A stretch of 64,000 nucleotides of DNA from Blepharisma japonicum. Its lineage: Eukaryota; Ciliophora; Heterotrichea; Heterotrichida; Blepharismidae. The DNA lies in assembly GCA_949751835.1 (NCBI GenBank), contig CATKHK010000049.1, forward strand, positions 282,353-346,352. The letters are read 5' to 3'. The translations under genes and the position numbers were made by a program. The notes beneath the pieces were generated by a model. The model searched no databases. It had not been told where the DNA came from and saw only the letters and a program-made list of their open reading frames with translations. This document shows positions 18,015 through 52,439 of the stretch, piece after piece. Every line of letters starts with the position of its first letter. Within the stretch, counting starts at the first letter, position 1.

Positions 18015-18259
18015 GATAATTTAGTTAGCAGAATCTAATTTATGGGATTTCCTATAAAAAGAAAATTTATATCAAAAATTAGCATTGTTTCAATTTTTCG
18101 TCGAAGATATGTGCTGCCTTGATAAGCAATAGTAAACTAGTATTGGCTTCTATTAAGTACATAATTTTTATAAATTAGATTTATTATTATTTTAATTAAA
18201 ATGGGGGCTTCAAATTATTACTAAAATATCCAAAGATTTATTACAAAAATAATAACTCA

Positions 18260-19471
18260 ATGTCTAAATTTCTTGATATCTGCCCCACTCACAAAGAGAA
18301 CTATATTTCTTGTGGGCCATGCTTAGAAACAGCCTCTTCTGTCTGATTATTTGAGCAGGACAACCAAAAACTCAAAAAGGACCTTCGCCATATAAAAACA
18401 ATTACTTGCAGCCTAGAAGAAAAACTTAATAGCCTTGAGTCAAATTACTCAGAATTAATCAAAAATTCTTCAAAGCCAGACTCAAAAATCCCAATGTCCA
18501 TAATTTTTAAGGAGTCATTAAAAGATTACCTTCTCAACCTACAAATTCCCACAAATTTTTTTTCTATTATAAAAGACCATGAGTTTTCAGTTGCTTTTTT
18601 GCTTCAAACCAAAGTTCTTGAAAGCGAAAAAAAATGTGAATGTGGGAAAGAAATGGTCCTTATTCTTGACCAAATTAAAAATGAGTATATTTTTACCTGT
18701 GAGTGTAGTAAAAATAAAGGGTTGCTTCAAGGAAGCATTTGGGAAGATACATCTTTAAGCCAAGATAAAATTTTGATGTATTTATTTTTATGGGCTATGA
18801 ATCTTGGTGACAAAGAAATCTCCCAGCTGCTTGATATTAATAATGTTGCGCAGATGGAAATTGATGATAAATTAAAGAAAATCGTTTCGGAGCATTTTCT
18901 AAGAACGCTTCCGAAGTTTAGGGGGATCGTGGAAATTGATGAGTCTTGCTTTAGAAATGGACATGGCCCTCTTGGATTTGGACAAACTACTCCTGAAAAA
19001 TGGGTATTTGGGTTGTATGAAAGAGAATCCAAAAGGGTTTATATGGAACTAGTTCCTAAAAGAACTGCTGCATATTTACTACCTATAATTAAAAAGCGAT
19101 GCGAAATCGGCACCACAATAATTTCAGATCAGTGGGCTGCTTATAACAAACTCCCAGAAATTGGATTTCCTCACTATACTGTTGACCATTCAAGGTTCTT
19201 TGTAAACCCTCACAATAGAGAAATCCATACCCAGCATATCGAAATTTCCTGGTGTTGGGCAAAGTACAACATTAAGCGCAAATCAAGAAAAATGAACAAC
19301 CTTCAAGAGAGTCTCAACGTATTTTGTTGGAAAAGACAGTATAGAAATTATAATAAAATCATTGAGGTTGGAGATATAATGAAAGCATTATTTGAGCTAA
19401 TAAAGGAGTATCAACAAAATATGAAGATGAAGAAAATTCCGGAGAAAGAAGTTGAGGCGATAATTCTCTAG
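18260..19471 (+). CDS. IS1595/ISXO2-type (Merlin-like) transposase-domain protein
   Basis: 403 aa from ATG 18260; one in-frame TGA (Trp) near 18344. A short Cys/His segment (CPTHKENYISCGPC) and a coiled coil come first, then a zinc ribbon (CECGKEM ... CECSK, about 126-149), a helix-turn-helix region, and a DDE nuclease of the IS1595 type. The first Asp is in VEIDESCF (D227), the second in IISDQWAAY (D290) and the Glu in HTQHIEISWCW (E328). All three catalytic positions and the HSRFFVNPH element are intact. No terminal inverted repeats are seen in the flanks, so it looks like a resident, possibly domesticated gene. Ciliates use domesticated transposases for germline DNA elimination, but that role is inference here. 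Confidence 0.85.
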
Positions 19472-38976: not shown

Positions 38977-39049
38977 GGACCCATAGCACAACTGGTAGTG
39001 CAACGGACTCCAAATCCGCAGGTTGGGCGTTCAAGTCGCTCTGGGTTCA
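38977..39049 (+). tRNA. trnW-CCA: tRNA-Trp(CCA) with 4-bp anticodon stem
   Basis: 73 nt. Acceptor GGACCCA/TGGGTTC plus discriminator A; D arm GCAC-AACTGGTA-GTGC; T arm GGGCG-TTCAAGT-CGCTC; loop CTCCAAA with anticodon CCA at 39010-39012; a T6 Pol III terminator follows at 39051. The anticodon stem is ACGGA/TCCGC: pairs 28-42 to 31-39 form, but A27 (39003) faces C43 (39019), leaving 4 bp. Yeast and human tRNA-Trp have 5. A 4-bp stem in tRNA-Trp(CCA) has been tied to UGA decoding in Blastocrithidia and the heterotrich Condylostoma. No intron. Confidence 0.95.
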
Positions 39050-39078
39050 CTTTTTTATAGGATTAATAATCTATTATA

Positions 39079-42218: not shown

Positions 42219-43415
42219 TTATAAATTATATGTCACGAAAGTAGACCCCAAAGGCAGCTTGTGCTTAAAAGCTCCAATTTTTGCATCTACAGTTTCTGAC
42301 TCATCGTCTATATTCACAAAGGTAAAATACCCGTCCATTGTTCCAGATGTGGTTGGAAGAATACAACAGTTTTCGAAAGTCATCTTTTTTGAGCCTTGAT
42401 AGACTTCAGGAAAATGCCCAGTAAGTCCTGGTTGACGAACTACTCTATCAACTCTTCCATAACTATCAGTGATATTCCAAGTTCTCGTCTGTAAGCGCCA
42501 CCTTTTTGATGGCTCGTTTGGTTCTATTCCTACCTGATAAGCTCAAATATATCTTTCTCTGCTGCTAAGATGAGGGACAAATAAGCTTTTTACAGTAACT
42601 CTAATCCCTTCAGTAGTGGCATCGCTGCAAAACTCATTCCATTCAAAGGCTTCTATCTTTTTTGACTCTATTTCTATTGCTCCGGAGGCTAATTTCTCCG
42701 CATATAATGTAAGAAAATCTGTTATGGAGGGAAATAAATATAAATAGGTATTTCTGATCCCAGTATTATAATAAATTGCCCCTGCTCCTTTTCCAAGAGC
42801 CCCAGTCAAATCATAGAGAATTTTTTGTTCTGAATATGGAGATGCTGCAAAGCAAAACAAAGGAAATTCAGTCTTCTTCAGAGCCTTTTTCAAAGGCAAC
42901 AGCATCATAACTGTTAAGTATTCATAAAATCTGTATGTCCCAAAAATTCCTGCAACACCAGCAAGCTTCTGACCATCGTATGCCATATAAATGTGATATA
43001 AGTCATATGGCATATCAATTCCTGTGGCTTGTTTGAACTGACTGAGTACCGACTCAGACGAAATTTTCAAATCTGAGCCAACATATATATTCTTATAAAA
43101 TATCTCCAAAGTGGTACTGCCCCTTTCCCTCAAGCATTTATATACCGGATGCTGAGGATATCTTGACTTTATCTCACAGATCATTTGATGAAAGGCCTCA
43201 ACAATTTTTAAATAATTTCAAATTTCTGTCTTAATATAATTATAAAATTCTCCTTTATTGTAGTAAGGAAACAGCAAATTACAGTGGGTTTTCCATATTG
43301 AATCCATAGTACCGTAGGCATAAAATGCCTTTGAAGTTCTCAGTATTAATGACAGTTCTTTGGGCTCTAAAAACTTTAAGATTTCCCCAAGAACGTCAAT
43401 TTCTAATACTTCCAT
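42219..43415 (-). CDS. FBXO3: F-box only protein 3 (F-box/SMI1-KNR4/ApaG)
   Basis: 398 aa; TGA at about 43218 and 42543 are Trp. Residues 1-45 are an F-box (VLGEILKFLEPKELSLILRT, SIWKTHC). A SMI1/KNR4-type domain covers about 75-240 (QFKQATGIDMPYDLYHIYMA; AGVAGIFGTYRFYEYLTVM; FPLFCFAAS). The C-terminal ApaG/DUF525 domain covers about 255-398 (GIRVTVKSLFVP; RQPGLTGHFPEVYQGSKKM; PTTSGTMDGYFTFV). This three-domain order is that of animal FBXO3, an SCF substrate receptor. It is shorter than the human protein, lacking an extended acidic tail. Confidence 0.93.
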
Positions 43416-43499
43416 TTCTGATTTTTTTATATCTAGCCCATTTATTAGAAGATAATTCTTGTGTTTAATTCTCTGCTAAGTATGGACAATAATTAAGAA

Positions 43500-47981: not shown

Positions 47982-50900
47982 TTATCTTCCTCCGGTAAGA
48001 TAGCCTGGGTAAATAAACAGCACAATCAGCATACCTCCAATTGATATCCCTGCAAGGATTTTCTTTAATATCGACATATTAAGAAGAGGCCAAGAAAATA
48101 CATCTAATGCAGTCCCTTTAATATAATCAGAGACCCCTCTTCCTACTTCTGGGCGGTCAAGCTCAGGATCTCTATTCGGCTCATTTTGTCCTTCCCCCAC
48201 GGGTCTTTGATTAGCTTCTGCTAAGCTCAAAATGTCAAAAGATATTGCAGCTTTTCCTCCAATAGTCCCTGGCAAATTCGGTAAATGCAGTTCAACTCAT
48301 TCTTCATCCAGTTTCAATTTCCCTTCTTTTATTACTCTTTTAAAATATTGTGTTAGATCTAGCACTACTTCGCTGATCACTCGATCATCGCCAAACGTAT
48401 TAAATTCATAAGCAACAAGTCTCAGTCTTGCAAAGTTGCAAGGGAGCTGAAAATGAAATTTCATCCTTCAGTTAAAAACGCCTTTTCCATCTTCTGAGCC
48501 TACATGACAGTCTGTTTCTTTGGTAATCGCCTCTTCAAGCCAGCCAGAAGGATCGAAATGGGCTCGGAAATAAATATCGACAGTGTCGTTTTCTTTGGGA
48601 ATTCCTTCACATTTTCATAGAATTAGTCTTAACTCGTATTCTTCAGGGCATGGCTTGGAAATATTTGCGAGAGGAACTAGTTTTGCTTCTGCGCTCTCAT
48701 ATAGCTCTAAAAATAGCTCAAGCATGCCTTGAGCTGTGCTTTTCCCTTTGTGGTGTAAGGTTCTGTACTCAACTGGGACTACTGTTTTATTATTTTCTAG
48801 ATAGGTTTCGTGCTTTTTTGCTAGTTTTTTTGCATTTGATAGCCAGTCACGATACTTAGGGTCTTGAGAGTTATTTGCTTCCATATCGATAAATTCTTTC
48901 ACGGTCTTGATCATCAGCCTATCCTGGCTTTTCTTTTCGCCATAATATCTGTCTTCTAAATCAATAGCTGTGGTGCCTATCAAACTATCAAATCTGTACT
49001 CTGTAAGGTTCCATATATTTATTTCTAGTTTTCAGTCAGAAGGGAAATCAGCTTTAAGTTCATAAGTTCTGAAGTACTCAGGATTTAAAGTTTGAGTTTC
49101 TGGTCTGTTGTCGCATATATATTTCATGACTTGATTTTTGTCTTCCCCAATCAAAATTTCAGGGTAACTATCTGCACTTGATAAGGCTTCAAGACCTCCA
49201 GCAAAAGCAGTCCAATCTGGAGCATTTGATACAGCACTCAAAGAAAGCCCTCTCAATAAATACAGCCGGACTGCAAATGATGAATATTCAAAGACCTTCA
49301 TTAAATATCCAGACCCTTGAAATATTGGATGAAAAAAGTCAAATCCCCAGCTCATTTCTTGGACATCAAGAAATTCTTCTTTTTTTGATTTTTCACAAGG
49401 CTTTATTCTTATACAAGCTTTTAAAACTGCTCCATTAGGTTCACCGACTTTATAAGCAGACAGCTTCTCAGTGTTTTTTGTTTTCGTGAAAAGCAAATAT
49501 CTTTGGTAAGGCAAATCTAATGATTCTTCATACAATCCGCCTTTATAAACAGGCCTGTTATATTGAAAATCGTCTTCTCCAACCTTTTCATCTGACCTTA
49601 AGAATTTAAATTCAGTCATTGTTCCTTCATTTAGAGTATCTAGTGTTTTTTCAAGATATCTGATTTCCTTCTTTAGTTTTTCATCAATGTTACCTTTTTT
49701 CCATTCAGCACTCTTTGCCCTTGCCCTTAAGTCTACAAGTTCAGCTTCAATTTCAGAGATTTCATTTTCCCTTTGTTCTAATTCAGCTTCTTCGTCTTCT
49801 TCTAATTTGTCGAATTGGATTTTCTGTAGGACTTTTGAATTTTTGGGCTCATAGATATCGCAAATCATATCCATTGATGCTTTTGGCTTGCTGGATTCTC
49901 CATTTATAACTGATGCCTCAGAGGTTTCTCCATAATCAGTATAAGAAAACTGCTCAGTCCTCCTAATTTTCTTTAAGGTCAATGATCTTAAAGGAGCTTG
50001 CTCGATAAGATCTTTGGTTGTAAAATTTCTTGTATATAAATCTTGAGCTTCTTGCTTTTTCACTTCGTCTTTAATTCACTGGGCATACGGAATTAGCGGG
50101 ATATATGTATAGCATTCGTTTCATGATAAAAACGCATTATCTTTTATTTTTACATAAATTGCTGGCAAATAAATCGGCTCTACTGGAAGTTCGATATTAG
50201 AAAAATGCAAAATACTTAAAAAGTTCGGGTTTCCTTTGTCATTGTTTTTCATATGTCCGATCTGAATTTCCGCTTTTTCTCCATTTCCCATCTTGTATCC
50301 AGGAATTGATATAACAATGCTTGGGTTTTCATAGTGTGGGACTAAATTCCTAATCCCTATCAAAGCAAAATCAATATCGCACAAAATAGATCCATTGTTT
50401 CTCACACATGGGTTGTTTTCTGGTTCCACATAGGTTTTGCTTATATAAAAATCAGCAAGCAGCCTCCCTTGGCTTGCTCCTATTTCTGAAGCATTAATAA
50501 CATGAAAAAAATGAGCCTGGCTTCATAAATTTTCACATCTATGAAGAGGCACTGAAAATTGGCCGATTTCTAGAGTAGTTCAATATAATTTAAGAGCTTT
50601 GATTTTATTATGAAGCTCTACACGCAAATTCTGTTCAAAATGCAAATCTTCGTGCAGTTGTATCTGCTTCACGCCAGACCATTTCCAAATTGGATATTTT
50701 GTTCCTATGTTTTCTGCAGCAATATTATCAGGTAGACTCAAAACGATGTCACCACAGTAAACTTTTAGTTGCAAATTTATTTCTTCATCAGATAAGCTGG
50801 GCGCTATATCAAATCCACCATAAATATTCCAGCAAAGCCACTTATCAGCTTTTCTTGGCTTGCTTATTTGTGTTCTGTTTTTCATTTCTTCATCTGGGAA

Positions 50901-52439
50901 ATAAGCTAATGATGCCAACAATAGTCCAGGAGAATCAGAGCCAATTTCTGAATGAGTGTCAATAGATTTAAATGGAATTCATTTCGGATGATCATTTTCC
51001 ATCATTTCTGAAATAGGTTTCCTTATATATCCTACCCTTACCTCCCCACCTAAATAGTACTCTGAGTACAGATCTAAAACTACATCTGGGACTTGTGTAG
51101 GATCAATTGGGAAAATTTCTTTTATATTTTCGACAATTTCTCCACTGTAATGGTCTCCTCATTGAAAATATTCTAAAGCTTCTCCTGTGTCTGAGTCAGT
51201 ATTTTCTCTTTTGACAGCTTTTCTTGAAAACACATGATAGTTGCCTATAGAAACGCGGATTCTAATAGAGTTTCCTAAGCCTCTTACATTTTTAAGCTCA
51301 TATAAAATACTACGGAAAATATGGAGCTTTGAAATGGGTTCTCTATAAGGTGAAGCTCGAGAAGGGCCGGTCTCAGGAGTATCATTGGGTGTTATTGTCA
51401 TAGAAAGCAGCATTCTCCCTAAAAAGCAGCTTCCTAAATAGCTACGTTTTACAAAGCCAGATAAATATTTAATGTCTTTCCAGATCGACTCTTCGTCAGG
51501 ATTTGGGCCATAAAGATTTACTCACCTGCAAGGCATGATTCCTCCTCTGCTTAGTAAGTTGTTGATGTTAAAAAAGTCGTGATCTGAAGGAATTTCAGGG
51601 ACAGTAGCTATCAATAAATCCCTTTGCAAATGCTTATGGTCTCAAACTCTGATATTTATTCTATCATTCAAAATAGGCTTAAACGCAGGAAATGATAACT
51701 TGACATTTCATATAGGAGAAGGGGTAGATTCGCACGTATGAGTTTTCTCTACAATTCCCATTGATCTAACACTGACAAAAGGACTTGGATGGCCTTTAAG
51801 CTTAGGCAAGTTTTCAGCTTTATAAATATTGATCGACAACTGATAAGACTTTTTCACAATTAAAGGGCCTCCCAATACCTTAATTTGGCTCTCTTTTTGC
51901 CTCTTCTGCATTCTTTGATTATGGCTCATAAGCTGCTCAATATCTTCTTCATCAGAATCATCTTTATCTTCCTCAACTACAAGGTGGTCACCAATAAGAT
52001 GAGTTGGTGGGACATCATCAGGCCCAATTATGAAGCAATTCAGCAGAAGATAACCTCTTGGAGTTGACCCATGGTCAGGGTGTATAAGATTAATTCACAT
52101 ATTATAGATCTCATGACTGCTACTTCTATGTAAAGTCGCAAGGCCAATTGAAAAGGCCCCTATAAGTTTATTCGCCAGAAATGGGCTGTACCCGTAGCAC
52201 TCAATTTTTAGTTCTCAGCTTTCAAGCTCAACATTTGTAAGAATTAATTTGGAAAAGGTAAAAGATTGATTTCAACAAGGATTGGTGGTGGCTTCTTCAC
52301 AGGTGGTAGCTTGGGATCCTGCATTTCCACATGTTACTTTGACAAATGGATCGCATGATCCAGAAGATTCAAGGCTAATAAGATCTCGGCCTTCTATAAT
52401 GGTGACTTGGCATAAGTATTCTTTTCTGATAGTGGACAT
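47982..52439 (-). CDS. Ferlin-family multi-C2 membrane protein
   Basis: 1485 aa in one exon; open only because at least sixteen TGA codons are Trp (for example 48297-48299, 50580-50582, 51159-51161). Several C2 domains: C2A at 1-115 (YLCQVTIIEGRDLISLE, CDPFVKVTCG), a second at about 190-310 (SYQLSINIYKAENLPKLKGH, then PFVSVRS), others near 340-470 and at about 780 and 1150. An acidic linker and a coiled coil (about 865-910) intervene. A single C-terminal TM anchor (about 1458-1479; ILAGISIGGMLIVLFIY) gives the ferlin topology. Ferlins drive Ca2+-triggered membrane fusion and repair; alveolate ferlins serve secretory organelles. Confidence 0.85.

Follow-up and report, generated by a model that had tools for sequence, protein, structure and literature searches.

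A four-pair anticodon stem in the nuclear tRNA-Trp(CCA) of Blepharisma, a known candidate for reading UGA as tryptophan, with its gene copies and release factors

Introduction

How is UGA read as tryptophan in a nuclear genome whose tRNA-Trp carries the anticodon CCA? The question is raised by a tRNA gene in the window, i.e., the whole 64,000-nucleotide stretch of DNA analysed here. In a first-pass annotation this gene was described as a tRNA-Trp(CCA) with a 4-bp anticodon stem and otherwise well-paired arms, located near genes that use UGA as Trp, and was proposed to be the UGA decoder with no need for a separate UCA tRNA.

The short stem cited there for Blastocrithidia and Condylostoma is indeed tied to UGA decoding in the literature, which is given throughout as it stands in the accessible parts of the cited sources. 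The 4-bp tRNA-Trp(CCA) is the only form in Blastocrithidia nonstop and C. magnum, and that of either organism raises UGA readthrough in T. brucei and yeast reporters (PMC13092985). The same four-pair structure was later found in Blepharisma and Loxodes, while Stentor and Fabrea, in which UGA is a stop, are stated to be without it (Swart et al., 2024, cited in PMC13092985). The Blepharisma case is credited to Swart et al. (2023 bioRxiv/2024 eLife RP93502) by PMC12005148. Since both PMC13092985 and PMC12005148 credit Blepharisma to Swart et al., the observation made in the window is correct but concerns an already known case.

The tRNA-Trp(CCA) Gene

ARAGORN calls a tRNA-Trp(cca) at 38977-39050, and the 73-base gene (Table 1) scores 62.0 bits against Rfam RF00005. 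In the ARAGORN drawing, the anticodon stem consists of four pairs, CGGA/TCCG, and the only non-standard pair marked in the Rfam alignment is that between A27 and C43, so that the two programs agree on the lack of a Watson-Crick pair at the top of the stem. The description of the other arms is likewise borne out by ARAGORN: all pair, with G.U wobbles at 2:71 and 50:64 and Watson-Crick pairs at the remaining stem positions. The discriminator is A73. A Hirsh-type change in the D-stem (G24A) was considered and is ruled out, position 24 being G.

Table 1. Locations of the features discussed (positions given with no contig or locus name are those of the window)
Feature	Location	Strand	Remarks
tRNA-Trp(CCA) gene, 4-bp anticodon stem	38977..39049	+	ARAGORN, Rfam, BLAST; one of six identical copies found
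A27, unpaired top of anticodon stem	39003	+	Rfam RF00005 alignment
C43, opposite A27, cannot pair	39019	+	Rfam RF00005 alignment
Anticodon CCA	39010..39012	+	ARAGORN
T6 run, likely Pol III terminator	39051..39056	+	putative termination
Ferlin-like gene	47982..52439	-	16 in-frame TGA, 12 TGG, ends TAA; shows UGA = Trp
eRF1-A	L054 1456-2766 (C121)		main eRF1
eRF1-B	L055 613-1920 (C29)	-	
eRF1-C	L056 1453-2751 (C9)		
Odd tRNA-like family, B boxes, first part	C4:785540, C8:164418, C10:278459 and 278712, C13:19765 and 52382		
Odd tRNA-like family, B boxes, rest	C20:36529, C25:153956, C39:350650, C42:285345, C46:158004 and 158434, C152:15317		
Odd tRNA-like family, members	L059, L138, L178, L181, L185, L192, L219-L225		

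Copies of the Gene and Search for Other tRNA-Trp Genes

Genome-wide searches used the assembly to which the window belongs (G000; 45.2 Mb in 224 contigs). BLAST of the 73-base gene (E<=10) finds six tRNA-Trp(CCA) loci, all 100% identical: one on C49 (the window), three on C47, and one each on C14 and C6. Their flanks differ, except that all six have AAGCA directly upstream and a run of 5-6 T just downstream. Furthermore, a pattern for CCA tRNAs (TCCAR, 14-19 bases, GTTCRANYC) gives 38 matches, each of which was inspected with ARAGORN; 6 are the known copies, 1, on C4, belongs to the odd tRNA-like genes described below, and 31 have no tRNA at the site. A five-pair tRNA-Trp was found neither by BLAST at E<=10 nor among the 38 CCA-pattern matches, a search that an intron-bearing or very divergent gene could escape. 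The census of tRNA-Trp genes that the first-pass annotation had suggested, made with BLAST and the CCA and UCA patterns, thus yields six identical four-pair CCA genes and no other nuclear tRNA-Trp.

UCA tRNAs were searched for with a separate pattern, which gives 123 matches (reversed-pattern control, 243), or 67 (control, 123) when a pyrimidine at position 60 (Y60) is required. All 67 Y60 matches and 12 of the other 56 were inspected with ARAGORN in intron-free mode. No nuclear tRNA-Trp(UCA) was found among them or by BLAST of the gene, the pattern being blind to introns and to an unusual T loop. The sole UCA-pattern match that is a tRNA lies at C204:2881-2951 (68.1 bits). It adjoins an ORF with an NADH:quinone oxidoreductase membrane domain (PF00361, 1e-30), on a contig that reads N in part and whose G+C is 21.5-34.5% per readable kilobase. 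Because of the NADH dehydrogenase subunit ORF alongside, this tRNA is almost certainly of mitochondrial origin, namely the tRNA-Trp(UCA) that every sequenced ciliate mitochondrion is said to encode (Swart et al., 2016). A tRNA-Sec with anticodon UCA was found on C60 by a search with the tRNA-Sec family (75.6 bits). These are the UCA tRNAs found, in keeping with the proposal that no separate UCA decoder is needed.

Frequency of an Unpaired 27:43

To see how common an unpaired 27:43 is in this genome, tRNAs were sampled with a pattern combining a B box and a T run, which is blind to this position (227 matches; reversed-pattern control, 15). This sample took the place of a whole-genome search with the tRNA family, in which 63 of 2483 candidates had been scored. 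Among the B-box matches listed, merging of overlapping rows left 62 sites, 60 of which are called by ARAGORN (all but L170 and L197), with 40 distinct sequences; dropping five sequences of the odd family (L059, L178, L181, L185, and L192) left 35 distinct, well-formed tRNAs. The pattern cannot recover tRNA-Trp itself, whose position 52 is C. The value for tRNA-Tyr was read from an ARAGORN drawing with a 10-base intron.

Among the B-box matches listed, 27:43 is a Watson-Crick pair in 30 of these 35 other tRNAs, G.U in 4, and a mismatch in 1. The sole mismatch is the U.U of tRNA-Ser(CGA) at C2:806294-806374 (L050), which Rfam marks too. An unpaired 27:43 is therefore uncommon, yet not peculiar to tRNA-Trp, in this genome. 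Together with the identity of all six tRNA-Trp copies found, its low frequency indicates that the mismatch is no accident. Since tRNA-Ser(CGA) is also unpaired there, a short stem alone is no proof of altered decoding. Another apparent 27:43 mismatch, L138, came from a score-biased table of 31 distinct tRNAs and was rejected; it scores below the Rfam tRNA cut-off and belongs to the odd family.

UGA Read as Tryptophan

Three proteins were translated with TGA as X and aligned to their best PDB matches, and the residue facing each X was counted by script. In these three alignments, 7 of the 12 aligned in-frame TGAs face Trp, and the other 5 face F (twice), E, Y, and K, so that no non-Trp residue occurs more than twice. 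For example, 8 of the 16 TGAs in the ferlin-like gene fall within the alignment with myoferlin, and 4 of the 8 face Trp (the others F, E, Y, and K); in an FBXO3-like gene (42219-43475), one of two aligned TGAs faces Trp and the other F; and in eRF1-C, a release factor paralogue described below, both aligned TGAs (codons 14 and 374) face Trp of human eRF1. The use of UGA as Trp in genes near tRNA-Trp(CCA), as first annotated, is thus well founded.

A crude count over 30 non-overlapping ORFs of the window, called with UGA set as sense, gives 49 TGA and 73 TGG (UGA in 49/122 Trp codons). These ORFs end in TAA (23) or TAG (7), a count in which UGA could not show as a stop, having been set as sense. 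The G+C content of the window is 32.5%. One ORF of the window (18200-19471) has an ISXO2-like transposase domain (DDE_Tnp_IS1595, 3e-13), and transposase genes with an ISXO2-like domain are mentioned for the somatic genome of B. stoltei (PMC9942806).

Release Factors and the Identity of the Genome

The eRF1 domain PF03463 is found in four places, i.e., on C4 and in three full-length eRF1s, A, B, and C (Table 1). The match on C4 is presumably a Pelota-like protein. eRF1-A aligns with human eRF1 over 7-426 (1dt9, E 7e-181), and eRF1-B and eRF1-C are 68 and 61% identical to it, respectively; GGQ is kept in all three. In human numbering, eRF1-A has KSSNIKS, YICDNKF, Ala70, and Ile126; eRF1-B has SATSIKS, YICNNVF, and Ala70; and eRF1-C has SATSIKS, YICDNKF, and Ser70. 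A Trp codon near the start is UGG in eRF1-A (codon 13) and UGA, in the same alignment column, in eRF1-B and eRF1-C (codon 14).

The first-pass annotation had pointed to eRF1 as a place to look for UGA-discriminating substitutions, and the main eRF1 does have two candidates, Ala70 and Ile126: Leu126Ile and Ser70Ala are each reported to raise UGA readthrough (PMC4695839). Changes at site 70 are known elsewhere. In Blastocrithidia, Ser70Gly is tied to UGA reading (PMC12153298), and Ala at the corresponding S67 of yeast numbering is found in various ciliates with sense UGA (PMC12440015). Against a weakened release factor, assays of B. japonicum eRF1 reportedly showed recognition of each of the three stops (Swart et al., 2016).

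KSSNIKS, YICDNKF, and Ala are tabulated for three Blepharisma species, and eRF1-A, with Ala at position 70, matches these entries exactly (PMC4695839, Table 2). The telomere repeat of the assembly is also consistent with this genus: CCCTAACA gives 141 overlapping four-unit matches (control, 0), and the matches listed lie within ~450 bases of a contig end. The same repeat is reported for B. stoltei (PMC9942806). As the telomeres support but do not prove the genus Blepharisma because other heterotrichs may share the repeat, the eRF1 motifs and the telomeres are taken together, and on this basis the window gene is almost certainly the published Blepharisma tRNA-Trp or its orthologue.

Odd tRNA-Like Genes

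Thirteen tRNA-like genes, dispersed over the assembly and forming one family, also came to light (among 17 pattern matches; control, 0). Their acceptor stem is nearly uniform, TCAGRGR/YCYCTGA in most, with two-sided changes preserving the pairing in some. C73 and the T arm are retained, and at least 4 T lie close downstream in 12 of the 13. The anticodon arms vary in sequence and loop size, with a 10-base loop in 7/13 according to a crude hairpin search. Judged by these features, most of the genes seem unlike tRNAs that serve in ordinary decoding. The member on C152 is called a “tRNA-Trp with intron” by ARAGORN and was rejected as such, as it belongs to this family and shows an apparent 10-base loop. 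Separately, three clustered sequences at C178:27480-27875 (L227-L229) have a tRNA-like 3′ half, with B box and T run, but lack a good cloverleaf, and only one of them receives an ARAGORN call, a poor one.

How UGA May Be Read

Very probably, the four-pair tRNA-Trp(CCA) reads UGA as well as UGG, helped by a weakened eRF1-A. A normal nuclear tRNA-Trp(CCA) gene would have lost its 27:43 pair, and the resulting four-pair stem would loosen decoding so that near-cognate C34.A3 pairing admits UGA alongside UGG. eRF1-A, with Ala70 and Ile126, would compete weakly at UGA, letting tRNA-Trp(CCA) win, while UAA and UAG would stay stops. The role of decoder proposed in the first-pass annotation is thus supported, by the sole nuclear tRNA-Trp found, by UGA at conserved Trp sites, and by the eRF1-A substitutions; that the unpaired stem is the cause of UGA reading and the eRF1 changes a help to it is inferred from published work on other organisms. 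Some observations speak against the tRNA mechanism: eRF1-C keeps Ser70, a residue other than Trp stands opposite 5 of the 12 aligned TGAs, and tRNA-Ser(CGA) is unpaired too.

Alternatively, A27.C43 may be neutral, and an ordinary near-cognate tRNA-Trp(CCA) would read UGA once eRF1 stops competing, so that the eRF1 changes alone suffice. This is improbable, even though each of the two eRF1-A substitutions is reported to increase UGA readthrough (PMC4695839), natural near-cognate insertion of Trp at UGA has been noted (Swart et al., 2016), and tRNA-Ser(CGA) of the same genome tolerates an unpaired 27:43. The four-pair form is reported from several unrelated lineages with UGA as Trp and said not to occur in Stentor or Fabrea, and reporters gained UGA readthrough upon unpairing (PMC13092985). 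Furthermore, a share of 49/122 Trp codons, by the crude count over 30 window ORFs, is heavy for ordinary readthrough. That a fully cognate tRNA reads UGA, be it a mitochondrial tRNA-Trp(UCA) that is exported, a tRNA-Trp that is edited, or an overlooked nuclear gene, is extremely unlikely, for although a UCA tRNA exists on C204 and inspection covered 79 of the 123 looser UCA matches, that tRNA is almost certainly mitochondrial, the 67 Y60 matches hold no nuclear UCA tRNA-Trp, and no significant editing was seen in C. magnum (Swart et al., 2016).

Reading of UGA by the four-pair tRNA-Trp(CCA) also has parallels in other systems. As in Blastocrithidia and Condylostoma, the anticodon is CCA, the anticodon stem has lost its top pair alone, no nuclear UCA tRNA-Trp was found, and UGA means Trp. 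Here A and C stand unpaired, versus C and U as written for those two organisms (PMC13092985). In Condylostoma UGA doubles as a stop; in the ORF calling done here it was preset as sense. The system described as ex Karlodinium veneficum shares the stem, the reading of in-frame UGA, and the lack of a UCA tRNA; there, one of seven tRNA-Trp(CCA) is short, with U and C, whereas here all six copies found are identical and short (PMC12005148). The short-stem mechanism and its occurrence in Blepharisma are accordingly already known from these sources. In bacteria, position 27-43 changes likewise in the E. coli tRNA mutants of Schultz and Yarus from 1994, which reportedly enhance wobble, though these are laboratory mutants.

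The eRF1 paralogues with UGA at codon 14 and the odd tRNA-like family are possibly new. eRF1-B and eRF1-C are not mentioned in the published Blepharisma eRF1 literature as far as surveyed, in its accessible parts. It is conceivable, though very unlikely, that eRF1-B and eRF1-C, which can be made only when the four-pair tRNA-Trp outcompetes release at UGA, would serve as a self-adjusting brake on termination. Bacterial RF2 is under in-frame UGA control, and the proposed brake would formally resemble it.

Significance

As a discovery, the locus adds little to what is published; the useful additions are the census of copies (six identical, no five-pair form found by the BLAST and CCA-pattern searches) and the three eRF1 paralogues. 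Nature would here provide a clean example of a codon whose meaning is set by a feature of the tRNA outside the anticodon. One tRNA species apparently decodes UGG as well as UGA, alongside an eRF1 with two UGA-weakening substitutions, and the case bears on the relative shares of tRNA and release factor in the reassignment of UGA.
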